From contig NZ_JAHQZR010000015.1 of NCBI RefSeq assembly GCF_019049105.1, positions 62,001 through 126,000 on the forward strand: 64,000 bases of DNA, given 5' to 3'. The notes below the pieces were generated by a model. It saw nothing but the letters and a program-made list of their open reading frames with translations, was not told the origin of the DNA and did not search any database. Each line of letters starts with the position of its first letter. Position 1 is the stretch's first letter. The position numbers were made by a program, and so were the translations under genes. The stretch comes from Leucobacter chinensis. GTDB taxonomy: Bacteria > Actinomycetota > Actinomycetes > Actinomycetales > Microbacteriaceae. Shown one piece after another: positions 8,776-44,549 of the stretch.

Positions 8776-9554
8776 CGGGTGCGGGGAGGCACTTCGATCC
8801 ACTCGAGGTGCTTTCCCGTGCGCCCGTCGCCGCTTGAGCGGCCGGTGAGCCGGCGGCCGATCCACGGCAAAACGTGTTCGCGACCGTAGCGAAGGTTTTG
8901 CCGCAGGGTCGGCTTTGGCATTGGGGCGGCCACTGTCACCCAGTCGGCGGGTACGGGAAGTGAGAGCGTGCCGAGTACGTTGTGTGCGACCCGAGTGTGG
9001 CCCACGGGGCCTAAGTGTAACCGGTCGTGTGACCAGTACTGGCGGCCCGGTAACTCGGGGTCAGACCAATTGTCGGTATAAGCAATTTCAAGGTCGCCCG
9101 TGATGTCGCCGACCGCGGCCACGAGCGCGTCGCCCTTGGCTTTGACCGTGCCGCCACTCGGAATACCGCCTGTTGGGTTCGGTCCCGCGAGGAGCAGCGG
9201 TTGTACGCCGGCTTCCTGTACGCGTGACAGGGCGCCGCGGGTGCGCTCAAGAATCGACTCGAGATTCGTTCCGGGTCGGAGCATGTCGTTGCCGCCGCCA
9301 TTCACACTCAGCAGCGTTGGCTTGAGTGAGAGCGCCGGTTCGAGCTGTTCGTCAATGATGGCGTCGAGCAGACGGCCCCGCACGGCGAGGTTTGCATAGA
9401 GCACGGTCTTGCCCGTGGCGTCGGCCAAACCCTGCGCCACAAGATCGGCCCAACCGCGTAACGTGCCATCGGGGCGTTCGTCGCCCATGCCCTCGGTGAA
9501 ACTGTCGCCAATCGCCACGTACCGAATCGGGTGGCGCAGCTCAAACGCGCTCAT
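8772..9554 (-). CDS. SGNH/GDSL-family hydrolase
   Basis: A 260-residue SGNH esterase. Block I is VAIGDSFTEGMGD with the catalytic Ser, block III is LSVNGGGNDML with GxND, and the catalytic Asp/His lie in a late SHDRLHLGPVGHTRVA segment. No signal peptide or membrane helix is seen, so it is cytoplasmic. Family members hydrolyse esters or acyl groups; the substrate cannot be told. It starts without a ribosome site, seven bases after the -10 box TACAGT, so it is probably leaderless. Its stop overlaps that of gluD on the other strand. Confidence 0.85.
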   Translation of the reverse strand: MSAFELRHPIRYVAIGDSFTEGMGDERPDGTLRGWADLVAQGLADATGKTVLYANLAVRGRLLDAIIDEQLEPALSLKPTLLSVNGGGNDMLRPGTNLESILERTRGALSRVQEAGVQPLLLAGPNPTGGIPSGGTVKAKGDALVAAVGDITGDLEIAYTDNWSDPELPGRQYWSHDRLHLGPVGHTRVAHNVLGTLSLPVPADWVTVAAPMPKPTLRQNLRYGREHVLPWIGRRLTGRSSGDGRTGKHLEWIEVPPRTR

Positions 9555-32031: not shown

Positions 32032-32439
32032 CTACCCCGAGATCACCGCGAGGGCGTCGATTTCGACGAGCATTTCGGGGTGGGGCAACCCGGTAAAGAC
32101 CGTCGTGCGACAGGGCAGCTGGCCTCCCGGCACATGCTTGGAGACGAACTCGCCATAGGCGTCGTTCATGCGTGCGAAGAGTGACTGGTCGGTGAGGTAC
32201 ACGCGAAACATGAGCACGTCTTCGACCCCGGCGCCTCCCGCCTCGAGAATCGCTCGCACGTTTTCGAGGGTGCGCATCGTTTGGGCATAGACATCGCCAG
32301 CAGCGATATAGGTGTTTGTTTCTGGGTCCATGGGCCCCTGGCCCGAGACCTGCAGCATGTTACCTTTGCGAAGGCCCTGCGAAAAAACGTGCGCCGGGGC
32401 CGGTGCCTGGTCGGTCAAGATAACTGATGTTGTCGCCAA
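32032..32439 (-). CDS. RidA-family enamine/imine deaminase
   Basis: A 135-residue RidA/YjgF protein: SQGLRKGNMLQVSGQGPMDPETN, then TLENVRAILEAGGAGVEDVLMFRVYLTD and GGQLPCRTTVFTGLPHPEMLVEIDALA. The Arg in PCRT and the Glu in VEID are the family's active-site residues. RidA hydrolyses reactive enamines released by PLP-dependent dehydratases. The start is TTG at 32439, six bases after AGGAG; the longer open frame has no homology. It is the last gene of the minus-strand cluster with a PLP ammonia-lyase two genes upstream, exactly the expected partner. Confidence 0.87.
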   Translation of the reverse strand: MATTSVILTDQAPAPAHVFSQGLRKGNMLQVSGQGPMDPETNTYIAAGDVYAQTMRTLENVRAILEAGGAGVEDVLMFRVYLTDQSLFARMNDAYGEFVSKHVPGGQLPCRTTVFTGLPHPEMLVEIDALAVISG

Positions 32440-32497
32440 AATAATCTCCTCTGATCGTGGACAAACTGAAAATAGAGCGCTCGAGGCACCCCTGTGC

Positions 32498-33451
32498 TTA
32501 GCGTAAAATATCGCGGTGTTCGGCGCCGAGCTCGTCGAGAGTGGGAAGCCCCTCCCAATCGCCAACGACGGTGACCGAGTGGGCGGCGACGAGTCCCGCA
32601 AAGTCGAGGCATTCTTGGGGCCCGAGACTCGTCAAGAGGCCATGAATGTATCCCGCTGCGAAGGCATCGCCGGCACCGACCGGGTCGCATTCGGTCACCT
32701 CGGTAAGGTGCTGCGTGTATACGGTGCCGTTCAGCGCAATTGCGCCCTCGGCGCCCCGTTTGATGATGACCTGTGAGGGGCCGAGTGCTGCCACCTCACG
32801 TGCCACGGCAACGTCATCGATGTCGGTGACGGGGTGGCCGAGAAGCACTGCTGCCTCGTCGGTCGTTGCAAAGACCACGTCTGCCGATGCGGTGAGCTTG
32901 CGAAGCACCGGTGTCGCGACGTCTTCAGACCAGAGTGAGGCGCGGTAATTCAGGTCGAGCGTTACTGTGACCCCGGCCTGTCGTGCGACTGCCGCAGCCG
33001 CTAATACGGTTTCGAGCGGCCCGGGCCCTAAGGCGGCAGTAATGCCCGTGAGGTGCAGTACTCGCGCTGAAACGATATCGGCAACGGGAAGGTCAGCGGG
33101 CGTGAGGCTCGCGCCAGCGCTGCCTGACCTTGCATACTGCACGGCAGTTCGGCCGAGGCCCTTGGGGCCCCTCACCATGATGCCGGTGTGCGAGGGGCCA
33201 AAGAGTGACGGGGTCGTGACTCCTTCTGCGGTGAGCTCGCGATTGATGAACTCGCCGAGTTCGTCATCCCCGAGCCTGCCCACCCAGGTGACTCGGTGAC
33301 CGAGGCGAGCGAGGCCTATCGCAACGTTTGATTCGGCTCCTCCGAATGACAGGTGAAAAGGTGGGCGCGATGAGATCGGTCGCCCAGAGGGTGGGAAGAA
33401 AAGGCCCATCGATTCGCCGATGGTGACGACCTCGGGGTGTGCGTGGGTCAT
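32498..33451 (-). CDS. kdgK: 2-keto-3-deoxygluconate kinase (PfkB family)
   Basis: A 317-residue ribokinase-family sugar kinase. N-terminal VVTIGESMGLFFPP and FHLSFGGAESNVAIGLARLGH are typical of KDG kinases, and the catalytic motif is ECDPVGAGDAFAAGY. It would convert 2-keto-3-deoxygluconate to KDPG. The KDPG aldolase gene lies at 43.9 kb in the same island, which supports this substrate over fructose or ribose. Its ATG overlaps the stop of the PLP-enzyme gene by four bases, so the two are coupled. Specificity is inferred from sequence and context. Confidence 0.85.
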   Translation of the reverse strand: MTHAHPEVVTIGESMGLFFPPSGRPISSRPPFHLSFGGAESNVAIGLARLGHRVTWVGRLGDDELGEFINRELTAEGVTTPSLFGPSHTGIMVRGPKGLGRTAVQYARSGSAGASLTPADLPVADIVSARVLHLTGITAALGPGPLETVLAAAAVARQAGVTVTLDLNYRASLWSEDVATPVLRKLTASADVVFATTDEAAVLLGHPVTDIDDVAVAREVAALGPSQVIIKRGAEGAIALNGTVYTQHLTEVTECDPVGAGDAFAAGYIHGLLTSLGPQECLDFAGLVAAHSVTVVGDWEGLPTLDELGAEHRDILR

Positions 33452-34710
33452 GAGAAGTACATCCGAATCAGGTCGCGAACCGTGTGACGCTCATCGACGA
33501 GCGGCACGAGGCTCCAGCGGTCGAGCGTTGTGCAGGGGTGTGAGATGCCGAGCTCGACGAGGTCGCCGACCCGGGGTGCTGTCGTGTCGTTAAACTGCGC
33601 GGGGTCGAAGCTGATGAATGCATGCTGGTCGGCGAGTTCGGTGACCGTCGCATTCATACCACGCGGTGAAGAGCCGTCTCGCAGCCGGGTTGAAAGCACA
33701 CCGGGTAGCCCTTGGTCGAAGCCAACATCACGTCGACCGCACAGTACCAGCGCAAAGCCGGGCTCGGGAATGCTGATGATGGGGGCCCATACTCGAATTG
33801 CGGCGAGAAATTTAGGGGTTTCTGCCTTGCCTCGAGAAAGAGGCGTGAGCCCCTCATAAAAACCGCTGTCGTGTGTGAGGTAAGCACCGCTGCGCAGCAC
33901 AACGTGGTCGGCGGGAAAGGAAGCCTGCTCGAGCCCGTCAAGCGCCTCGGCAAAATACGCGCTACCCCCGATGCTCACGATTGCGTCGGAGGGCAAGAGG
34001 CCTGCCGCCTTGAGACGGTGAACATTCTCTCCGAGTTCACGAGCGAAACTCAACACGCGCTCGGCCGCCGCCTCGCTGTCTGGGCCGCCTAGGGTGCCCT
34101 CGTACGCGGCGACACCAGCGATACGCACCCCCGGTGTTACCGCTGCCTTCGCTGCGAGTGCTTCGAGCGCGGCGAAGCCACGGGTCCCGGTGCGGCCGCC
34201 TGCATGACCGACCTCGAGAAGAACCTCGATTGGTCGAGAGGTGGCTTCACCCGCTGGCGCGGCGAGGAGTTCGAGACCCTCGACCGAGTCGGCGTAGACG
34301 AAGCATGAGAAGGTCTCGTCTTGGGCGAGCTCGGTACGTAACCAAGCGATTGCGCCCGGCTCGACGAGTTGGTTTGCGAGCAAGAGGCGTTGAAAACCAA
34401 AAGATCGGTATACACGCAGTTGAGTGGGGGTAGCGGCGGTGATCGCCCAGGCACCAGCCGCCATCTGTGCTTCGGCAAGCTGCGGCGACATTGCCGTCTT
34501 GCCGTGGGGTGCGAAGCGAATGCCACGTGCCCGTACGTAGCGCATCATTGCTTCGATATTGTGCTCGATAGCCTGTTGGTCAAGACTGAGCTGCGGAAAA
34601 TCACGGTTTTCATCAAAGAGCGATGAACCAATGAGATCTTGCGGGTTTGCCTCGGCGTTGAGAGCGGGACCGAGCCCCTTGGTGAGGCTGAGCGATAACG
34701 GTGGAATCAT
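33448..34710 (-). CDS. PLP enzyme of the D-serine dehydratase-like/D-glucosaminate ammonia-lyase type
   Basis: A 420-residue fold-type III (alanine racemase-like) protein. The PLP lysine is in RFAPHGKTAMSP, followed by ITAATPTQLRVYRSFGFQRLLLANQL and a C-terminal metal/active-site region ISHPCTTLDRW. Family members dehydrate or deaminate D-serine, D-threonine or other D-configured amino acids. Being coupled to KDG kinase by a four-base overlap and near KDPG aldolase and RidA, it may act as a D-glucosaminate ammonia-lyase giving 2-keto-3-deoxygluconate and ammonia. That specific call is inference; the family is clear. Confidence 0.8.
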   Translation of the reverse strand: MIPPLSLSLTKGLGPALNAEANPQDLIGSSLFDENRDFPQLSLDQQAIEHNIEAMMRYVRARGIRFAPHGKTAMSPQLAEAQMAAGAWAITAATPTQLRVYRSFGFQRLLLANQLVEPGAIAWLRTELAQDETFSCFVYADSVEGLELLAAPAGEATSRPIEVLLEVGHAGGRTGTRGFAALEALAAKAAVTPGVRIAGVAAYEGTLGGPDSEAAAERVLSFARELGENVHRLKAAGLLPSDAIVSIGGSAYFAEALDGLEQASFPADHVVLRSGAYLTHDSGFYEGLTPLSRGKAETPKFLAAIRVWAPIISIPEPGFALVLCGRRDVGFDQGLPGVLSTRLRDGSSPRGMNATVTELADQHAFISFDPAQFNDTTAPRVGDLVELGISHPCTTLDRWSLVPLVDERHTVRDLIRMYFS

Positions 34711-35516
34711 TGGGAGCTCTTTCCTTCGTGAATGATGGCGCCCAATCGACGAGAAATCTCACGGGCGGTGTGTGTAACAAGTGGCACGAGCTCAGGCACT
34801 CGGGTGCTCGGCACGCGGGTGACCGGCCCTGAGACGCTCAGCGCATGAGAGCACTCACCGCTTGCATCAAAAACTGGCGCTGCGACGCAACGAATACCCT
34901 CTTCGTTCTCGACGTCGTCGATAGCCCACCCCTGCTCACGAACACGCGCGAGCTCTTGGCGAAGCTCACGCTCGTTGGTGATCGTTGTTGAGGTTCGGGC
35001 GGGCATCCCTGCGGCGAGCACTGATGCTATGGCCTCTTCGCTCGCGTGCGCGAGAATGCATTTGCCAACGCTGGTCGAATACATCGGTTGGGTGTTGCCG
35101 ATGCGTGAGAACATGCGCACTGCGTGGGGGCTATCGACCTTGTCGATATACACCACGTGGGGCGTTGCCGAACGCACAAAGTGCACCGTCTCGGCCGTTT
35201 CTGCGCTCAACTCGACGAGCAACTGGTGCATGTCTTTGCTCGGTTGTACCCCGGCCAGGTAGGTTTGCCCGAGACGCGCGGTTTGCCAGCTGAGCCGGTA
35301 GGCGCCCGAGACGGGCACCTGCTCGACGAACGACATCTCAACGAGGGGCTGTAAGAGCCTCGTGACCGTGCTTTTGTTCAGGTCGAGTGCTGCAGCAACC
35401 TGCGTAATGGTTTGGCCCTCACCGTGAACGTCATCGCCGAGGTGCTGCAAAATCGAGAGTGCGCGCCTCAGCGATGCCGAATTGTTTCGGGGTGCCTGTG
35501 CGGGGGTGGGGTTCAT
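34707..35516 (-). CDS. IclR-family regulator of the catabolic island
   Basis: A 269-residue IclR protein. The winged helix spans about 10-75 (LRRALSILQHLGDDVHGEGQTITQVAAALDLNKSTVTRLLQPL), and the effector domain follows with YIDKVDSPHAVRMFSRIGNTQPMYSTSVGKCILAH. Its stop overlaps the PLP-enzyme start and its start overlaps the deacylase stop, so the five minus-strand genes form one tight operon. It probably binds the paired dyads at 37202-37232 and represses both arms until an intermediate such as KDG or KDPG appears (inference). Confidence 0.9.
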   Translation of the reverse strand: MNPTPAQAPRNNSASLRRALSILQHLGDDVHGEGQTITQVAAALDLNKSTVTRLLQPLVEMSFVEQVPVSGAYRLSWQTARLGQTYLAGVQPSKDMHQLLVELSAETAETVHFVRSATPHVVYIDKVDSPHAVRMFSRIGNTQPMYSTSVGKCILAHASEEAIASVLAAGMPARTSTTITNERELRQELARVREQGWAIDDVENEEGIRCVAAPVFDASGECSHALSVSGPVTRVPSTRVPELVPLVTHTAREISRRLGAIIHEGKSSQ

Positions 35517-37126
35517 AACGCTCTTCTCCTGCTCGAACGACGAATGGCTCGACCGGGAGTGAATTGCGTGAGCTTTCCCCCCGAGAGAGCACTCGTGCCA
35601 GTAACGGTTACTTCCATCATGCCGTGAGCAGGCAGGGTTGGGCTCTCATACGTTGCGGCATCATTCAGACTTTCTGGGTCAACGAGAACGAAGTCGGCAA
35701 CTGAACCTATTTCGGCTCGGCCACGGTTACCAAACCCAAAGCGATCAGCTGCGCGGTGAGAAAGGTGGTCGGCCGCATCGGCCCAATTCCAGTCTTTCCA
35801 ATCGATGACGTGGCGGCGCAGCATCCGAGCGAAGCTGCCCCAGCCGCGGGGGTGCGGGTGGCTTCCGAGATAAATGCCGTCGCTGCCGCCCATGTGCGCT
35901 TCGTGGTTTGCAATCGTGCGAAGGTTCTCGCTGTCGTGGTTTGCCGCGTGATTAACGACAGCGCCGACGCCGAGCTCGGTCGCGACGAGCATCTCGCAGA
36001 TCGTCTCAGCGGTCGAGAGCCCTGCTTTTTCAGCTATGTCCCCGAGACGCTTTCCCTCGGCCCAGGCCCAGTCGCGGTGTGCGGCAACCGAGACGGTGAG
36101 CTTCTCGTAGAGGGGCTCGATCGTTGGGAACCAATCGGCTATGAGCGCGGCACGTTGAGAGCGGTCGGCAAGGGCATCAAGCGTACGCTGAGGCCCTCCT
36201 TGCTGCAGCTCGGGTGGCAGCGCGAGCATCGCAAGAATGGTGTTGCCCCGGTGGTACGGGTACGAGTCGAAGGTGATGTCAACCCCGTCGTGTCGTGCCT
36301 GATCGATGATTGGTAGGGCGATATCAGCGGGTGCGTGTAGGTGTGAGATGTGCAGGGGTGCGCCGCTTACTTTCGCAAGATCAATGCACTCGCCAAGGCC
36401 GCCCGGTGCAGCAAGCTCGTAGCCACGAACATGGGCCACGAGGGGTACTTGCTCTTCGGCCGCAATCGAAGCGTAGGTCGCGAGCTCTTTCGGGTCGGCG
36501 AAGCCCCCTGGCACATATTCGAGACCGAGTGAAATGCCCACGGCGCCCTCGGTGAGTGCGTCACGAACGAGCTGCGCGGCCTCGTCGCGCTGCCGTTCGG
36601 TGAGGGGGTCTTGTGCAAACCCGGTCACAGCGCTGCGCACTGTGCCGGCTGGAACGAGCATGGCCGCGTTGAGTCGTGTCGCACGAGAAAAATGTGAGAG
36701 TACATTGGCAATGCTCATGCCGTTTTCGTAACCAAGGGGCAGGGGGCCGTTGATCGCTGAAAAGTATCGTTCGTTGAGCGGCGCCGATTCGGGCGTTGTT
36801 GGTGCAAAGGAAACGCCGTCTTGGCCTATCACGACGCCGGTCACGCCCTGGCGCAGCAGGCCGTGCTCGACCTCATCACGGTGTAGGGCACCTTCAGCAT
36901 GACTGTGCGCGTCAATGAAGCCCGGCATGGCAACGCGACCATCGGCTTCAATCACGTGCGTCGAAGCGCTTGACGTGGCATGGAGCGTGGGGCTGTTCGC
37001 GGGCAGGATTTCAGTTACGACACCATTCGTCACAACAACGGTTGCGGTTTCGAGCAGCGCAGAACCACGCTTTGGAAAGCGGGCATTGCGAATGATGAGG
37101 GTTTCTGGTGCCTGCGAATTCGTCAC
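35513..37126 (-). CDS. N-acyl-D-amino-acid deacylase-family amidohydrolase
   Basis: A 537-residue amidohydrolase-superfamily protein. The metal motif is PGFIDAHSHAEGAL, with further His in HVRGYELAAPGG and HISHLHAPAD, and an Asp in HMGGSDGIYLG. It matches D-aminoacylase-type enzymes, yet the position of the metal-bridging Cys (GNCG in characterised members) reads GQDG. This hints at a different metal site or subfamily. GTG 37126 is chosen with a weak GAAAGAGA upstream; the longer frame has no homology. It starts the minus-strand operon and probably deacylates the imported substrate. Confidence 0.82.
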   Translation of the reverse strand: MTNSQAPETLIIRNARFPKRGSALLETATVVVTNGVVTEILPANSPTLHATSSASTHVIEADGRVAMPGFIDAHSHAEGALHRDEVEHGLLRQGVTGVVIGQDGVSFAPTTPESAPLNERYFSAINGPLPLGYENGMSIANVLSHFSRATRLNAAMLVPAGTVRSAVTGFAQDPLTERQRDEAAQLVRDALTEGAVGISLGLEYVPGGFADPKELATYASIAAEEQVPLVAHVRGYELAAPGGLGECIDLAKVSGAPLHISHLHAPADIALPIIDQARHDGVDITFDSYPYHRGNTILAMLALPPELQQGGPQRTLDALADRSQRAALIADWFPTIEPLYEKLTVSVAAHRDWAWAEGKRLGDIAEKAGLSTAETICEMLVATELGVGAVVNHAANHDSENLRTIANHEAHMGGSDGIYLGSHPHPRGWGSFARMLRRHVIDWKDWNWADAADHLSHRAADRFGFGNRGRAEIGSVADFVLVDPESLNDAATYESPTLPAHGMMEVTVTGTSALSGGKLTQFTPGRAIRRSSRRRAL

Positions 37127-37201
37127 AGAGATCTCTTTCGAATGGGTGTCGAGAACGGCGGTGTCGTCGTGTGATTTAACTGTGCCACATCTCATATTTT
37201 T

Positions 37202-37250
37202 TTGCAATGCAAACTCCGATGTTGCAATGCACAAATTTTCCTGATAGTTT
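37202..37250 (+). promoter_or_regulatory. Divergent promoter with two 11-bp IclR-type dyads
   Basis: TTGCAATGCAA (37202-37212) is a perfect 5-1-5 dyad. TTGCAATGCAC (37222-37232) is a second copy with one end base changed, 20 bp away, so both face the same side of the helix. The second overlaps the -35 box TTGCAA (37222), which is spaced 17 bases from TAGTTT (37245), the promoter for the importer genes. Binding would repress it. Confidence 0.7.
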
Positions 37251-37311
37251 CCCAACAAGTCACATGACTTCAGCTTCCCAACCAACCGCTTCCAATGACG
37301 GAAGGAAACCC

Positions 37312-38856
37312 ATGTCAGCCTTACACCGTTCGCTGCGCTCGACACTTGTCGCGGGTATCGGCATCACAAGTCTTGCCCTACTCACCGCTTGCAGCCCTCC
37401 AGACACCGGGAATGGCCGAGGGGGTGAAGGCGACGGGGGTTCTACGCGACTCACGGTCGCCGAAACAACCGCGCCATCAACCCTCGATCCGCAGCGCTCC
37501 GGGCTTTTTGCCGATCGCTTTGCTTGGCAACTGAGCTACGAATGCCTCATGTCAACCACGGCCGAGGGCGAAGTGAAGCCGGGGCTTGCAACCGAGTACA
37601 CGCTCTCTGACGACCGCACCGAGTACACGTTTACGCTTCGCGAAGGGGTAACCTTTCACAACGGCGACTCACTCGATGCCGACGATGTGGTGTACAGCTT
37701 CGAACGGCTCTCAGAGAGCCCAGACCGCTTCGACACCGAACTCTTTCCAACGCTTTCACACGTCGAAAAGGTTGACGACATGAACGTGAAGTTCGTGCTC
37801 GATAGTCCCGACGCTGGGTTCGTGAACAACATGGGCAACCCGCTTGTATGGGGTTGCTCGATCATGAGCGCTTCGTCGGCCGATGACAACCTCGCGACGC
37901 AAATGATCGGCACGGGCCCGTGGGCACAGACCGCGTACGAGCCTGAAACGAGCCTCACCTTCGAACGCAACGATGAATACTGGGGCGAGAAGACCAAGGC
38001 AGAAGAGCTCTCGCTGCTGTACATTCCCAATATGGGCACGCAGGTGAGCAACCTCAAAGCCGGCAACGTCGACATTATCTTCCCTGATCAGGGGTCAGTC
38101 GAAGAGCTGAAGGGTGACGGTTTCACCGTCGATAACGTTCATACCGACTCGACAATCTTCTTGCAGATCAACAACACGAAGGCGCCCTTCGACGACGAGC
38201 GCGTGCTGAAGGCCATGGCGCTGGCGTTCGACCGCCAGGAGCTTGCCGACCAGGCATACGGCGGCGCCGCTCAACCGAGTGGTTACCTGCCACCGAGCCT
38301 GGCGTGGGCGCCGAAGGTGAGCGACCTGCCAAACCACACGCAAGATAGCGAGCGTGCAAAAGAACTGCTCGCCGAGGCTGGCCACGCAGATGGTCTCGAT
38401 CTCAGTCTTATCTATATCAACGGTTATGACCCGGGAACAAACGACCTGCTTGCAATTATGCAAAAGCAGCTTGGCGACGCAGGGTTTAACGTGACGCTTG
38501 AGCCGCTTGAAGCCGCGGTGTGGAGCGCGACCCGTGGCGATCTCGGGGTGTATGAGCTGAGCTGGAACGCGCAGTCGTACTACGCAAACCCATACCAGTA
38601 CGTTGCCCCTGTTCCCGGCCGCCAGGGCGAGGTCCCAGCGTCGCTGCAAACCCTCATCGATGAGGCATGGAACGCTGCGAGCGAAGAGGAATACCAGAGC
38701 GCTTTGAGCGCCGTGGCGACCCACGAAGCCGAGATCGTGTACCCCACGATAACGCTGCTGGCACGTGACATGTTTGTCGCCTACGAGGCGGGCGTACAGG
38801 GAATCGACATTCCCTCCAGCCAGAGCCGTACCTTCCTTTCACAGGTCACCAAATAG
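37312..38856 (+). CDS. Dpp/Opp-type substrate-binding lipoprotein
   Basis: A 514-residue family-5 solute-binding lipoprotein with lipobox LLTAC and Cys 27. It shows TLDPQRSGLFADRFAWQLSYECLM, EYTFTLREGVTFHNGDSLDADDVVYSFERL and DERVLKAMALAFDRQELADQAYGG, all family hallmarks. ATG 37312 follows GGAAGGA; an upstream in-frame ATG lies within the promoter. Such receptors bind peptides, but also amino sugars, opines and glycosides. Given the deacylase and KDG enzymes, the ligand may be an N-acyl amino-sugar acid or D-amino conjugate. Confidence 0.88.
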   Translation: MSALHRSLRSTLVAGIGITSLALLTACSPPDTGNGRGGEGDGGSTRLTVAETTAPSTLDPQRSGLFADRFAWQLSYECLMSTTAEGEVKPGLATEYTLSDDRTEYTFTLREGVTFHNGDSLDADDVVYSFERLSESPDRFDTELFPTLSHVEKVDDMNVKFVLDSPDAGFVNNMGNPLVWGCSIMSASSADDNLATQMIGTGPWAQTAYEPETSLTFERNDEYWGEKTKAEELSLLYIPNMGTQVSNLKAGNVDIIFPDQGSVEELKGDGFTVDNVHTDSTIFLQINNTKAPFDDERVLKAMALAFDRQELADQAYGGAAQPSGYLPPSLAWAPKVSDLPNHTQDSERAKELLAEAGHADGLDLSLIYINGYDPGTNDLLAIMQKQLGDAGFNVTLEPLEAAVWSATRGDLGVYELSWNAQSYYANPYQYVAPVPGRQGEVPASLQTLIDEAWNAASEEEYQSALSAVATHEAEIVYPTITLLARDMFVAYEAGVQGIDIPSSQSRTFLSQVTK

Positions 38857-38907: not shown

Positions 38908-39714
38908 ATGCTAGAACTCAAAAACGTATCGGTCACGTACCGTGCCGGTAAACGGCCAGCCGTATCGAATATTTCGCTGACGGTAGCCGAGGGTGAGCGA
39001 CTGGGCATCGTTGGTGAATCGGGCTCAGGTAAGAGCACCCTCACCTCAGCTATTCTGCACGCCCTGCCACAGGGGTCACGAGTCGACGGTGAAATTACGT
39101 TTCAGGGCCGTGAGATCAGCTCGCTCGGTGAGTCACAGTTTCGCGCGCTTCGCAGTGTCGAGATCGCGCGCATTCCGCAGGACCCGCTCGCAAGTTTGAG
39201 CCCCGTGTTGCGTGTTGGCGACCAGGTGAGGCATGTGATTCAGGCGCACCGCTCGGTGTCAAAACGAGACTGCATTCCGCTCATTGAAGAAGCCCTCGCC
39301 GAGGTCGGTATTCCAGAGCCGCACATCAAACGCCGTGCGTTTCCGCACGAGCTTTCTGGTGGCATGCGACAGCGAGTGCTCATCGCGATGTCGCTGGTCA
39401 ACGAACCAACGCTTCTCATCGCCGACGAGCCCAGGACAGCACTTGACGTGACCGTGCAGGCACAAATTCTTGACCTCATTCAGCGCGAACTCGATACGAG
39501 AGGCATGTCGATGGTGCTCATCACCCACGACATCGGTGTCGTCACCGAGGTGTGCGACCGAATTATCGTCATGAGGCACGGCCAAATCGTTGAAGACGGG
39601 TCGACCGAAGAGCTTTTGCGCAACCCTTCGCACCCTTACACGAAACAGCTCTTTGCCGCGGCTCGTATGCAAGGGGCCACGACAGAATCAACAGGGCAGG
39701 TGAAAACACCATGA
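38908..39714 (+). CDS. DppD-like ABC transporter ATP-binding protein
   Basis: A 268-residue ATPase: Walker A GESGSGKST, Q-loop IPQDPLASLSPVL, signature ELSGGMRQRVLIAMSL, Walker B LLIADEPRTALDVT and H-loop LITHDIGVV. The GMRQR signature and LDVTVQAQILDL segment mark the Opp/Dpp family. Note PRTALD where most members read PTTALD. It overlaps the next ATPase by four bases (ATGA). The usual C-terminal oligopeptide extension is short. Confidence 0.9.
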   Translation: MLELKNVSVTYRAGKRPAVSNISLTVAEGERLGIVGESGSGKSTLTSAILHALPQGSRVDGEITFQGREISSLGESQFRALRSVEIARIPQDPLASLSPVLRVGDQVRHVIQAHRSVSKRDCIPLIEEALAEVGIPEPHIKRRAFPHELSGGMRQRVLIAMSLVNEPTLLIADEPRTALDVTVQAQILDLIQRELDTRGMSMVLITHDIGVVTEVCDRIIVMRHGQIVEDGSTEELLRNPSHPYTKQLFAAARMQGATTESTGQVKTP

Positions 39715-40703
39715 CCAACTCCCGCGCGTATGCGCTTGAAGCAACCGGCATTGAACGCCGCTTCGCTCTTCCGCAAGACAAACTCTTTGCGCCCAAACGC
39801 TTTTTGCACGCTGTCGACGGCATCGATGTTCGAGTTCGCGAGGGCGAAACTCTCGGGGTCGTTGGCGAGTCAGGGTGCGGAAAATCGACGCTCGGCCGGG
39901 TTCTCATCGGCCTTGATAAGGCCGATGCCGGAACCATTGCCTGGGGCGGATCGCCAGCTGCTGCCCACACCGGCGCCGTGCAGGCCGTTTTTCAAGACCC
40001 GTCGAGCGCGCTCAACCCGAGACGCTCGGTGGGCGACTCGATCGCTGAAGCGCTACCAAAGCTGTCGCAGCGTGCACGCAACGATCGTGTCGCTGAGCTC
40101 ATGGGGCTCGTTGATCTCGATGAACAACTCATGCACCGTTACCCGCACGAACTCTCGGGAGGTCAGCAGCAGCGCGTGTGCATTGCTCGTGCGATTGCTT
40201 CTGACCCCACACTCATCTTGCTTGATGAGGCGGTGAGTTCGCTTGACGCGTCGTTGCAAATGCAGGTCATCGAGTTGCTGCGTGAGCTGCAGGAACGCAC
40301 CGGTGCAGCCTTCATCTTTATTTCGCACGATCTGCGAGCGGTGAGGGGTGTGAGTGACTGGATCGCGGTGATGTACCTTGGCCAGATCGTCGAACTTGCG
40401 CCAGCTGACGAGTTCGACGATCAGTTGCGCCACCCGTATTCGGTCGCCCTTCGCTCGGCCGAGCCGAGCATTCCTGGCGATCCCTTCGTGGCCGAGCGCA
40501 TCATTCTCGAGGGAGACCCGCCGAGTGCAGTCGACCTACCCGTGGGGTGCCGTTTTGCGTCGCGCTGCCCGGTTGCACAGAAGCGCTGCTTCGAAGAAGC
40601 ACCCCCGCTTGAAAGCGATGATGCGGGCCGGGCAATTCGATGCCATTTTCCTGGCAGCCTGCAACTGACACGAAGGCACGAGAAAGAGAGCCAGCAGCCA
40701 TGA
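39711..40703 (+). CDS. DppF-like ABC transporter ATP-binding protein
   Basis: A 330-residue second ATPase with Walker A GESGCGKST, Q-loop VFQDPSSALNPRR, signature [16 protein letters not shown], Walker B LILLDEAVSSLDAS and H-loop ISHDLRAV. The C-terminal region CRFASRCPVAQKRCFEEAPPL is the cysteine-bearing oligopeptide/dipeptide transporter extension, which in related proteins holds an iron-sulfur site. It starts and ends in four-base overlaps with its neighbours. Confidence 0.9.
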   Translation: MTNSRAYALEATGIERRFALPQDKLFAPKRFLHAVDGIDVRVREGETLGVVGESGCGKSTLGRVLIGLDKADAGTIAWGGSPAAAHTGAVQAVFQDPSSALNPRRSVGDSIAEALPKLSQRARNDRVAELMGLVDLDEQLMHRYPHELSGGQQQRVCIARAIASDPTLILLDEAVSSLDASLQMQVIELLRELQERTGAAFIFISHDLRAVRGVSDWIAVMYLGQIVELAPADEFDDQLRHPYSVALRSAEPSIPGDPFVAERIILEGDPPSAVDLPVGCRFASRCPVAQKRCFEEAPPLESDDAGRAIRCHFPGSLQLTRRHEKESQQP

Positions 40704-41647
40704 CGAAATATATTTTGGGGCGCGTTCTCGCCTCGCTCGGCGTGGTGTTTGTCTTGAGCTTGCTCATCTTCTTCGCTGGGCGCGGCCTTGTTGACGGGAG
40801 CCCCGCTCATGTGATTGCGGGATCACAGGCCTCACCTGAACGCATTGCACAGATCGAGCACGAGCTCGGCTTCGATCGTCCGATCATCGTGCAATACGGT
40901 GAGTGGCTGTGGGGCGTCGTGCGAGGTGACTTTGGCACTTCTCCCGTCACTGGGTTACAAACCATAGAGGTGTTGCAGCAGCAAATTCCCGTATCGTTTG
41001 AGCTTGCAGCGTTGAGCCTGCTCGTCGCGATCGTGCTGGGCGTGCCGCTCGGTGTCATCGCGGCCAAACGTGCTGGCAGTGCCATCGACGTTGGTATTCG
41101 TGTGCCGATGATCTTGCTCTTTGCCATTCCTGGCTTCATCACCGCTACCATCACCATTATTCTGGCGACGAACTACTTTACGAACCTTTACTCGCCAACG
41201 TACATTCGTTTTGAGCAAAGCCCGCTCGGAAATCTCCAAACGATGATTCTGCCAGCGCTCGGCGTCGGTATTCCTACCGCACCTCTCGTGATGCAAATGA
41301 CCCGAGCGTCGATGATCGAGGTGCTGCACCAGCCCTTCGTGGCTGCCGCTCGCGTGAATGGTCTTTCAAACCGTCTCGTCACGTATGGCTATGCGTTGCG
41401 GGCCTCGCTGCCACCAATCTTGACCTTTATCGGGTTCACCTTTGGCGCGCTCATCGGCGGTCTGCTCATCGTTGAACAAATCTTCAGCCTGCCCGGGCTC
41501 GGACGAGGCATTCTGCAGTCGATCAGCACGCGTGACTTTGTGCAGCTCAACGCGCAGGCAATTGTGCTCGCGGGTTCATTCATTCTTGCCAACCTCGTCG
41601 TTGACTTGCTCGTGCCCGCTCTCGACCGAAGGATCGCGAGAAAATGA
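40700..41647 (+). CDS. DppB-like ABC transporter permease
   Basis: A 315-residue permease. The N-terminus MTKYILGRVLASLGVVFVLSLLIFF, the periplasmic segment LGFDRPIIVQYGEWLWGVVRGDFG, and the EAA loop EVLHQPFVAAARVNGLSNRLVTYGYALRASL are typical of DppB. ATG 40700 overlaps the DppF stop, whereas an upstream in-frame ATG at 40640 lies deep inside that gene. Six helices are expected. Confidence 0.92.
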   Translation: MTKYILGRVLASLGVVFVLSLLIFFAGRGLVDGSPAHVIAGSQASPERIAQIEHELGFDRPIIVQYGEWLWGVVRGDFGTSPVTGLQTIEVLQQQIPVSFELAALSLLVAIVLGVPLGVIAAKRAGSAIDVGIRVPMILLFAIPGFITATITIILATNYFTNLYSPTYIRFEQSPLGNLQTMILPALGVGIPTAPLVMQMTRASMIEVLHQPFVAAARVNGLSNRLVTYGYALRASLPPILTFIGFTFGALIGGLLIVEQIFSLPGLGRGILQSISTRDFVQLNAQAIVLAGSFILANLVVDLLVPALDRRIARK

Positions 41648-42513
41648 CCACTGAACTCACCGCCACAATCGTCAATACCTTGCCTGAACGGGCGAAGCGC
41701 AAGCTACCATCGCCCGTTGGCCTCGTCGCTTTTAGCGTCATTGGCCTCTTTATCCTGTTCGCGGTCATTGGCCCATGGGTTGTTCCTTACCCGCCGAACG
41801 AACTCAATGTCGGCGAGCGGTTGCTGCGGCCTTCGGGCGAGTTTCTCTTCGGCACCGATGCGCTCGGCAGAGACCAATTGTCGCGTGTGCTTACCGCGAT
41901 ACGGCCTGCGGTTATCGCGGCCTTCGCTGCGACCGGGTTCGCTCTCATTCTCGGTACCCTGCTGGGCATAGCAGCGGGCTTTTGGGGCGGGAAAGTCGAT
42001 AGCATCGTCTCGAGAATCATTGACTTTCTCTTTGCCATTCCCGAGTACCTGCTCGCCATTCTCGTGCTTGCCATTCTTGGCCGAGGCCTTATGAACGCGG
42101 CTATCGCGATCGGTATCGTGTTCATTCCTCGTTTCGCGAGAACCGTTCGTAGCGCGACGCAAGAGGTAATGAGCCGCAACTACATTAGTGCCGCTAAGCT
42201 CTGTGGGCGCAGCGAGATGAGCATCATGGCGAGACACGTGCTGCCAAACATCACGTCGCCGCTCATCGTCATCTCGGCCATCAATCTCTCGATGTCTTCT
42301 GGAGCTTATGCAGCGCTGAGTTTTCTTGGCTTCGGTGTGCGGCCTCCAGATCCTGACTTCGGCTCGATGATCTCTGACTCGTTGCAGTACATCGGGAGCG
42401 ACGCATGGCTCATCGTGCCTCCAGCCGCGGTGTTTGTCATCTTTATTCTCGCGATTAACCTCGCCGGTGATGCGATTCGTGACTTACTCGACCCCAAATC
42501 TCAGAAAGCGTGA
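41644..42513 (+). CDS. DppC-like ABC transporter permease
   Basis: A 289-residue permease with an N-terminal helix at about 23-46, then FLFGTDALGRDQLSRVLTAIRPAV, typical of DppC, and the EAA loop TQEVMSRNYISAAKLCGRSEMSIMARHVLPNI. It completes the importer with the two ATPases, DppB-like subunit and receptor. The four-base overlap with DppB indicates coupling. The gene order (receptor, two ATPases, two permeases) differs from the usual permease-first Dpp order. Confidence 0.92.
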   Translation: MTTELTATIVNTLPERAKRKLPSPVGLVAFSVIGLFILFAVIGPWVVPYPPNELNVGERLLRPSGEFLFGTDALGRDQLSRVLTAIRPAVIAAFAATGFALILGTLLGIAAGFWGGKVDSIVSRIIDFLFAIPEYLLAILVLAILGRGLMNAAIAIGIVFIPRFARTVRSATQEVMSRNYISAAKLCGRSEMSIMARHVLPNITSPLIVISAINLSMSSGAYAALSFLGFGVRPPDPDFGSMISDSLQYIGSDAWLIVPPAAVFVIFILAINLAGDAIRDLLDPKSQKA

Positions 42514-42522
42514 CCCCATCTC

Positions 42523-43899
42523 ATGAAGTACGAAATGCACTCATCACCCAGCGACATTCAGGCTCTAATTGAGAGCCGAGCTGCCGAGCTACTCGAGCGC
42601 CATCAGGTACCCGGGGTTGGTATCGGGCTGCGCGTCGGCGATGAAACCGTAACGCTGGGAGTGGGGGTTACGAATCTTGAGCACCCCCTGCCCGTGACCG
42701 GTGACACGATTTTTCAAGTTGGGTCAATATCAAAAACATTTGTGGGCGTGGTTGCGGCACAACTCGTTAATGAGGGAATGCTCGACATTGATAAACCTGT
42801 TGCGCCGCTGCTCGCTGACCTCGGGCCGCTAGATCGTCGCATCACAATGCGGCACCTGCTCACACACTCTGCCGGTATTGACGCCCAGTACATGATCGGC
42901 AATGCCAGGCAACTGCTCGCTCACGGGGCCGACGACAGCATTCAGGCTTCGATCGCTCACTTCGCCTCAGATGTGCCCATGTTTGCGCCCGGAACGAACT
43001 ATTCGTACTCGGGGCCTGGTTTTATGGTTGCGGGTGCCGTGATCGAGCGCCTCACCGGAAAGCCGTGGCATGAGGTGTTGCAAGAGCGCGTGCTTGATCC
43101 GGCTTCAATGGGGCGTACCTTCACCCGCGCCGACCAAGCCATCACGCATCGCGTTGCCGCCCCGCATGATATTACTGACGGGGTAGCGCGCATCGCGAGA
43201 AACGAGGGCTGGCAACTTGGCTGGCAGCTGCCAGGGTGGGATGTTCCGGGCGGTGGTGTTTTGAGCACCCCGGCTGAGCTGCTCTCGTACGTTGAATTTG
43301 CTCTCGAACAAGACGCCCAAACGCAATGGTCGACCACGCTGCAGCAGGGGCACGAGCCGAGGCTCGCAATAGGGTATGCGTGGATGAAGAGTGAAAAGCG
43401 TGGCCTCCAAACGCTCGGGCATGACGGCCTGACAATCGGTTACGCAAGTAGGCTCACGGTGCTGCCAGAAGCCGATGTTGCAATCGTGTTGCTCAGTAAC
43501 TCAGTGAAGGGCAAGCCGCTGGTGCGGGAGCTTGAACAGCTGATTCTTGACGGGCTTTTCGGCCCAGAAGAAGCACCGCACATTCCCGACTTCGAGCCAG
43601 AGCGCTACGCCTTTCTCGAGGGGCTGTATGACTGCGGGTTCTATGGGCAGGTCGATTTGCGCATTCGCGCAGACCGAAGCGGCTTCGAACTCATCTCGCT
43701 ACCTGCGAACCGTCAAGATGGCTCGTTCACGATCGATCCGCTCTCAAGCCCGATCCTGCTGCCCGTTGCCGACGGAGTGCTCTCGGCCGAGCCACGCAGC
43801 AGCGACCCCGATCACTGGGTACCGTACATTGTTGATGAGTCAGGTGAAGCTATTGCACTGAGAATTGGGTCGAGAATAGCGAAAAAGGTGGCGTCATGA
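42523..43899 (+). CDS. Class C beta-lactamase-like serine hydrolase
   Basis: A 458-residue serine hydrolase of the beta-lactamase/D-Ala-D-Ala carboxypeptidase fold. SxxK is SISK at 68-71 (FQVGSISKTF), the second motif reads YSYSGPG, and a HDG-type third motif is present (TLGHDGLTIGY). Residues after about 345 form a separate C-terminal domain. There is no signal peptide, so it acts in the cytoplasm. Relatives include D-aminopeptidases and esterases. Within this island it may split an imported D-amino or acyl conjugate. It follows the permease by nine bases. Confidence 0.8.
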   Translation: MKYEMHSSPSDIQALIESRAAELLERHQVPGVGIGLRVGDETVTLGVGVTNLEHPLPVTGDTIFQVGSISKTFVGVVAAQLVNEGMLDIDKPVAPLLADLGPLDRRITMRHLLTHSAGIDAQYMIGNARQLLAHGADDSIQASIAHFASDVPMFAPGTNYSYSGPGFMVAGAVIERLTGKPWHEVLQERVLDPASMGRTFTRADQAITHRVAAPHDITDGVARIARNEGWQLGWQLPGWDVPGGGVLSTPAELLSYVEFALEQDAQTQWSTTLQQGHEPRLAIGYAWMKSEKRGLQTLGHDGLTIGYASRLTVLPEADVAIVLLSNSVKGKPLVRELEQLILDGLFGPEEAPHIPDFEPERYAFLEGLYDCGFYGQVDLRIRADRSGFELISLPANRQDGSFTIDPLSSPILLPVADGVLSAEPRSSDPDHWVPYIVDESGEAIALRIGSRIAKKVAS

Positions 43900-44549
43900 C
43901 CGCCCGACACCGGACACTTCAACAGATTTCAGGCCACGGTATTATCGCCGTGGTTCGAGCTTCGACATCGCAGCGAGCACTCTTCGCCTCTCGGGTACTC
44001 ATCGAATCTGGCATTCGTGCAATTGAGGTAACCTATACCGTTCCTGACGCGAGCGGGGTCATCTCTGAGTTGCGAGACGAGTACGGGGCCGAAGCGGTGA
44101 TTGGGGCGGGCACCCTCACGAGCGTCGCGAACGTAGACAACGCAATCTCTGCCGGAGCCCAGTTTCTCGTCTCGCCCGGGCACAGCACCGCGGTCACGGC
44201 CGCGGCAGTCGAGAGCGAGGTGCTCACGATGATCGGTGCGTTTACCGCGAGTGAGGTGATGGCTGTGCTCGATGCCGGAGCCGATATTGTGAAGTTCTTT
44301 CCCGGTGGCCTGGCCGGCCCCGCGGGCATTCGTGCACTGGCTGGCCCCTTTCCAGATGCCAAAATTGTGCCGACGGGAGGGGTTTCCCCCGCGAACCTCG
44401 GCGACTGGTTTTCGGCTGGTGCGGTGGCCGTGGGCGCAGGCAGCGACCTCGCTCCGAGTGCAGCGGTTGAGCAGGGCGATGCGGCAGTACTGCAAGCGCG
44501 AGCAACCTCCTTTACTGAGGCGCTCGCGCGAGCACGCGGGCAAGCCTAG
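43896..44549 (+). CDS. eda: KDPG/KHG aldolase
   Basis: A 217-residue class I aldolase: GIIAVVRAST, SGIRAIEVTYTVPDAS, the catalytic Glu region AVIGAGTLTSV, QFLVSPGHST, and the Schiff-base Lys in DAGADIVKFFPGGLAGP, then PTGGVSPANLGDWF. It splits 2-keto-3-deoxy-6-phosphogluconate into pyruvate and glyceraldehyde-3-phosphate. It overlaps the serine hydrolase by four bases and closes the plus-strand operon. Its partner KDG kinase is in the divergent arm. It ends 16 bases from the convergent ABC exporter with no visible hairpin. Confidence 0.93.
   Translation: MTARHRTLQQISGHGIIAVVRASTSQRALFASRVLIESGIRAIEVTYTVPDASGVISELRDEYGAEAVIGAGTLTSVANVDNAISAGAQFLVSPGHSTAVTAAAVESEVLTMIGAFTASEVMAVLDAGADIVKFFPGGLAGPAGIRALAGPFPDAKIVPTGGVSPANLGDWFSAGAVAVGAGSDLAPSAAVEQGDAAVLQARATSFTEALARARGQA

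Follow-up and report, generated by a model that had tools for sequence, protein, structure and literature searches.

The window, by which we mean the whole 64-kb stretch of DNA that was analysed, holds two sets of genes that diverge from a short gap, a left arm that includes the regulator and a right arm that includes an importer. Operon limits were drawn from gene order and strand, and several starts were placed by eye.

32032-32601, minus strand: RidA-family protein (Pfam Ribonuc_L-PSP, residues 64-187); the true start is probably downstream of the listed ORF start
32498-33451, minus strand: PfkB-family kinase, probably a 2-keto-3-deoxygluconate kinase (Pfam PfkB)
33448-34710, minus strand: fold-type III PLP enzyme, D-serine/D-threonine dehydratase-like (Pfam D-ser_dehydrat, Ala_racemase_N; PDB 3gwq)
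34707-35516, minus strand: IclR-family regulator, second gene of the left arm and presumed binder (Pfam IclR_C and HTH_IclR)
35513-37126, minus strand: amidohydrolase / D-aminoacylase-like deacylase, first gene of the left arm (Pfam Amidohydro_3; GTG start by eye)
37127-37311, no strand: divergent intergenic gap, 185 bp, 45% GC
37200-37214, no strand: predicted IclR site 1, TTTTGCAATGCAAAC, dyad core 37202-37212, one mismatch to TTNTGCANTGCANAA
37208-37226, no strand: everted pair of inner half-sites, TGCAAAC-N5-TGTTGCA, centred at 37217 and so 10 bp from each dyad centre
37220-37234, no strand: predicted IclR site 2, TGTTGCAATGCACAA, dyad core 37222-37232, one mismatch to TTNTGCANTGCANAA
37222-37248, plus strand: tentative importer promoter (TTGCAA, 15 bp, GATAGT), read by eye without consensus-scan support
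37312-38856, plus strand: SBP_bac_5 lipoprotein, first gene of the right arm (Pfam; start by eye from RBS and lipobox)
38908-40703, plus strand: two ABC ATPases, 38908-39714 and 39711-40703 (Pfam ABC_tran)
40640-42513, plus strand: two permeases, ORFs 40640-41647 and 41644-42513 (Pfam BPD_transp_1)
42523-43899, plus strand: beta-lactamase-fold hydrolase (Pfam Beta-lactamase)
43896-44549, plus strand: KDPG aldolase (Pfam Aldolase; NCBIfam eda above cut-off)

The presence of an IclR gene in the operon, claimed in the initial annotation, is borne out by Pfam matches above cut-off to PF09339 (N-terminal HTH) and PF01614 (C-terminal effector domain). By PDB sequence comparison the relatives of the deacylase include N-acyl-D-glutamate deacylase, D-aminoacylases and PpOngB (9kb1), and the PLP enzyme matches D-serine deaminase (3gwq). 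The top NCBIfam model of the PfkB kinase is KDG/KDGal kinase, at a score under the model cut-off.

The dyad pair in the divergent gap

The two 11-mers reported in the initial annotation are in place, TTGCAATGCAA at 37202-37212 and TTGCAATGCAC at 37222-37232, the former being a perfect palindrome about one centre base and the latter a palindrome with one mismatch. Their centres, 37207 and 37227, are separated by 20 bp or ~1.9 turns, as the proposed helical phasing had it, and they lie mid-gap: the left start is 81 and 101 bp away, the right start 105 and 85 bp. The second dyad had also been said to cover the -35 element of the importer promoter. A candidate can be read there by eye (TTGCAA at 37222-37227, a 15-bp spacer and GATAGT at 37243-37248), but a promoter consensus scan of 36800-37600 found none on either strand.

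Chance was assessed with 20,000 dinucleotide shuffles of 37127-37311, taking as a near-palindrome pair one with at most one difference between its copies. Such a pair at 18-22 bp appeared in one shuffle and at any distance in 28, and a 10-mer direct repeat at 18-22 bp in 16, whereas one perfect 11-bp palindrome appeared in 4,357; given the counts of 1 and 4,357, the pair is significant and a single dyad is not. The 64-kb window has no second palindrome pair of this kind at 18-22 bp spacing, and the looser tandem TTGCANTGCA-N4-14-TTGCANTGCA has a single occurrence in the 2.94-Mb genome. TTGCANTGCAA with up to two mismatches is not enriched across the window (27 seen, 24.5 expected). Two exact copies of the 11-mer are found elsewhere in the same genome, apparently within coding sequence as judged by eye, and the own-genome near matches C11 and C20, which were compared with the cluster's proteins only, gave no match. 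The pair is real and non-random. It is very improbable that the dyads are a functionless chance pair or the relic of a local duplication: they do form a 10-bp direct repeat, as duplication would leave, and both are imperfect against the consensus, but this is opposed by the single occurrence among the shuffles and by palindromes of the same type at the promoters of related loci.

Palindromes beside related IclR genes

The deacylase is common: at E 1e-60 or below, 62 of 398 genomes of the family have it, and its orthologues often adjoin IclR, PLP-enzyme, kinase and aldolase relatives. The expectation that the dyad would recur before orthologous clusters held when clusters with related regulators were compared: TTGCANTGCAA itself, to one mismatch, is almost absent, but the TTNTGCANTGCANAA type is present, to one mismatch, at 18 of 24 chosen related-IclR loci outside the window (442 kb) and at 0 of 47 other loci (895 kb). 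The scarcity of TTGCANTGCAA at deacylase clusters was considered as a refutation and dropped, because most such clusters have a more distant IclR (~30-36% identical); restricting the comparison to closer IclR relatives resolves it. The distant-IclR clusters have another three-box arrangement, TGCAA-N6-TTGCA-N5-TGCA, recognised by eye and present by pattern in 10 of the 73 rows of the IclR tree. It is seen at L203, L204, L206, L212, L222, L004, L007 and others, in many cases between divergent PLP-enzyme/kinase genes.

These counts are of loci that are not phylogenetically independent, with relatives chosen by HTH sequence after a first site scan, and with TTY widened to TTN after the f35 loci had been seen. 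The 47 other loci are made up of 26 clusters with another or no nearby IclR, 14 deacylase-relative contigs and seven loci (L188, L194-L199) with IclR proteins 36-41% identical that were judged to be of other clades; with these seven counted as relatives, the figures become 18 of 31 and 0 of 40. Together with the window the relatives make 25 loci from 14 genera, from which L298, L299 and L274 were kept out for their lower profile scores (L298 and L299 have no site to one mismatch). Among the 4,096 possible XXNXXXX half-sites, scored as exact one-base-centred palindromes, TTNTGCA ranks first, at 12 of the 25 loci and in 7 of the 14 genera, followed by a runner-up at 5 loci in 4 genera. With up to one mismatch the TTNTGCA palindrome is found at 19 of the 25 loci, window included, the exceptions being L180 and L182 (both degenerate), L187, L193, L228 and L229. 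Since GC-rich patterns equal or exceed TTNTGCA in the unnormalised one-mismatch count, permutations of the same letters were used as the control, and the other 119 permutations reach a mean of 0.05 of 25 loci and a maximum of 2.

Genome-wide, exact TTNTGCANTGCANAA occurs 12 times among 21 chosen genomes, nine of which have it; eight of the 12 sites are at the IclR loci, and the reversed pattern gives none in all 21; the window genome has no exact TTNTGCANTGCANAA. The TTY form, to one mismatch, gives 12 sites in 7 of 16 genomes, with 7 sites in 3 of 16 for its reversed control. Four exact TTNTGCANTGCANAA sites lie off IclR loci: one near a luciferase-like gene in G960, one at a pro-kumamolisin gene in G651, and two whose tested neighbouring ORFs are without a Pfam match. 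From these neighbours, the four sites do not extend the regulon.

The sites have comparable settings in several groups. Promoters of the clusters of genus g32 (IclR 37-40% identical) carry TTCTGCATTGCAGAA or variants; TTYTGCANTGCARAA is exact in four of the seven clusters, and in the genomes of those four the cluster promoter is the sole TTYTGCANTGCARAA match to one mismatch. In G705 a 15-mer identical to site 1 of the window lies on the operon's strand before an SBP-permease-permease-GH20-IclR operon, and in G651 TTTTGCAGGGCAAAA lies ~660 bp ahead of a reading frame for GH20, after which comes IclR. At L191 the genes downstream of the site are GH20 (Pfam), amidohydrolase, IclR and PLP enzyme, and L190 shares this flank. 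A profile, A1, built from 16 such related IclR proteins has matches in 27 of 384 genomes of the class, among them that of the window. Nine of its ten f35 hits, scoring 358-378 bits, were retrieved with their DNA still unread: TTGTGCANTGCACAA is exact in eight of these nine loci and has one mismatch in the ninth. The window-derived core TGCANTGCA alone is in eight of the nine, a count that, like that by tree fork below, is less open to bias. The f35 loci have TGCACAA as their half-site, which is also the right half of site 2 in the window. Six of the nine (L276, L278, L279, L281, L282, L283) have the site ahead of an amidohydrolase gene and then IclR; in L275 it precedes SBP, permease, permease and IclR (Pfam), and in L277 and L280 a lipoprotein-like start (by eye). 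The tenth hit, L299 of G945, scores 225 bits, lacks the site and lies in another tree fork.

L001, from Microbacterium esteraromaticum, has the closest deacylase (59%) and PLP enzyme (63%), alongside RidA; within its 17.6 kb there is no IclR, kinase or aldolase match and no site, and the best IclR match in that genome is 33%, a joint absence that speaks for the assignment of the sites to IclR. L193 has the palindromes GCGTGCACTGCACGC and TCGTGCAGTGCACGA at ~8800-9400, 62 bp apart and with 4 and 2 mismatches to the consensus, before a lipoprotein start that seemingly continues straight into sequence resembling permeases, which would suit a partial deletion of the operon.

Elsewhere, palindromes of this type accompany related IclR genes. 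Since such palindromes precede related-IclR clusters in other bacteria, the dyads are very probably sites of the cluster's own IclR. Palindromes alone name no protein, and seven weaker IclR relatives are encoded elsewhere in the genome, but the way in which the palindrome tracks related IclR genes (present at 18 of 24 loci and at none of the 47) makes it improbable that a regulator encoded elsewhere binds the dyads. A second site 20 bp away was not found in the relatives, the 18 other loci having one site each to one mismatch; two such sites at 20 bp are peculiar to the window, so that conservation does not extend to the tandem.

Regulator tree and box lattice

The IclR tree has 73 rows, IclR frames outside 200-340 aa and alignments of less than ~140 residues being left out (L218 is such a row). 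Its forks are a grouping that was not chosen by the analyst. The site is found on 20 rows, namely 18 of the 23 rows of one fork (SH-aLRT 94) versus two of the 50 other rows, which are the window and L289 of clade f38. The site is missing from a fork of 25 rows, to which the 10 rows with the other operator type all belong. The window protein, on a long and poorly placed branch, falls outside the fork of 23; its kinship to that fork is drawn from identity (34-50%, tblastn) and from the operator.

The 14 loci of f38 (L284-L297), which lie beside aldolase and kinase relatives, were counted apart from the 25. One of them has the site to one mismatch, and in all 14 the best match (1-3 mismatches) falls between -30 and 0 relative to the predicted start of IclR. 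Their three-box sites, CACAA-N5-TTGTGCA-N-AGCGCAA, follow a fixed pattern in 11 of 14 loci; they have the same half TTGTGC plus an extra everted box, CACAA-N5-TTGTG, with successive palindrome centres 10 bp apart. A position at the IclR start is consistent with autoregulation. The everted inner pair of the window has the spacing of the everted pair of these f38 sites, and the window half-sites fall on a 10-bp lattice of the f38 type, with dyad centres 20 bp apart and the everted inner pair midway.

Proposed switch, pathway and known systems

We consider it highly probable that the dyads are a tandem operator of the cluster's IclR, the dimers of which would repress both divergent arms until an intermediate is bound. 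The observation of the dyads and their predicted assignment to IclR are well supported, and repression of both arms is likely. Two IclR dimers, probably joined in a tetramer, would sit on one face of the DNA at the centres 37207 and 37227 and when bound would block RNA polymerase at both divergent promoters; a pathway intermediate would then bind IclR and lift the block, the inducer being a sugar acid such as KDG, KDPG or N-acetyl-glucosaminate. IclR binding, cooperativity, repression of both arms and sugar-acid induction are here what we infer. Some IclR proteins activate (PcaU, PobR), no convincing promoter is recognisable by eye for the left arm, and related loci with inspected flanks mostly have one site before one operon. 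It could thus be that IclR binds the dyads but activates, or that it governs one arm, with the second constitutive or otherwise regulated. We regard this as unlikely, if not negligibly so, given the mid-gap position of the pair and the products of both arms, which suit one pathway.

The pathway is best compared with the ong cluster of Pseudoalteromonas, which serves catabolism of the oxidised-chitin monomer GlcNAc1A and in which OngB, OngC and KdgK convert N-acetyl-glucosaminate to KDG and KDG-6-phosphate (PMC9537276). Like that cluster, the window has deacetylase-like, fold-type III PLP, RidA and sugar kinase genes with a transcriptional regulator; it adds a KDPG aldolase. The regulator and uptake systems differ, the ong repressor OngR being of the MurR/RpiR family and its inner-membrane protein of the SSS type (PMC9537276), where the window has an IclR protein and an Opp-type ABC importer. 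An ong-type gene set (deacylase, PLP dehydratase, KDG kinase and KDPG aldolase) is together in the window at the level of families. The probable substrate of the cluster is N-acetyl-glucosaminate or an amino-sugar acid like it, which we treat as a lead and not a result.

The metal site of OngB is of subtype V, Cys/His/His (PMC12017989). By motif position, as opposed to residue-by-residue alignment, the window deacylase has GQDG at the place expected for the OngB-type Cys and so is not filed as OngB. In the window deacylase and its orthologues, GQDG stands where OngB and D-aminoacylases have the metal-binding Cys; the GQDG-S pattern is found in 34 of 45 orthologous deacylase loci and GQDG is visible in six more, five being not resolved, which suggests a subtype that binds its metal through a different ligand. 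Neither LPMO_10 nor GH20 has a match in the window genome, and these absences, together with a deacylase lacking the Cys motif, counted against a full chitin-oxidation role for the window cluster. GH20 genes do lie beside related IclR genes in L189, L191 and L192, and these loci would agree with chito-oligosaccharide use.

A more comprehensive reading can be put forward tentatively, as one that we hold possible but somewhat doubtful. The window would hold a four-box operator, in which two three-box IclR sites overlap on a single 10-bp lattice and share an everted inner pair, and at which one tetramer serves the divergent promoter. Its regulator would belong to an undescribed actinobacterial IclR subfamily for the use of amino-sugar acids (oxidised chitin), and a second IclR subfamily would act on the same pathway in other Microbacteriaceae through TGCAA-N6-TTGCA-N5-TGCA. 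A regulator-operator pair with a defined consensus can be used to seek the regulon of this IclR subfamily, and would allow an amino-sugar-acid pathway of actinobacteria to be placed under a local switch. The one-, three- and four-box sites among related proteins are material for testing how IclR dimers pair on DNA.

A search of the open-licence literature, judged by title and the start of the abstract, found no paper on such a regulator or operator. The best-scoring NCBIfam models for the window IclR are KdgR and BhcR, and its top PDB match, 1ysp, is likewise KdgR; however, it scores 167 and 192 bits where the curated cut-offs are 275 and 350, and is therefore assigned to neither. The kind of switch, an IclR protein with a tandem operator, is already known. 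Suvorova and Gelfand 2021 record tandem IclR sites 18-22 bp apart, in 94 of 181 IclR orthologous groups, as well as three-box sites (PMC8222616), and their supplementary tables may already list the TTNTGCANTGCANAA group. The general statement in the initial annotation that IclR proteins use paired sites is documented by this 18-22 bp pairing, within which the window centres fall. TTNTGCANTGCANAA departs from the consensus of that study in having T where YCRY has C. In other respects the window operator resembles those operators (PMC8222616): its palindromes have approximately the WTT-11-AAW geometry with one centre base, its boxes alternate in direction, and its 20-bp tandem is within the 18-22 bp range.
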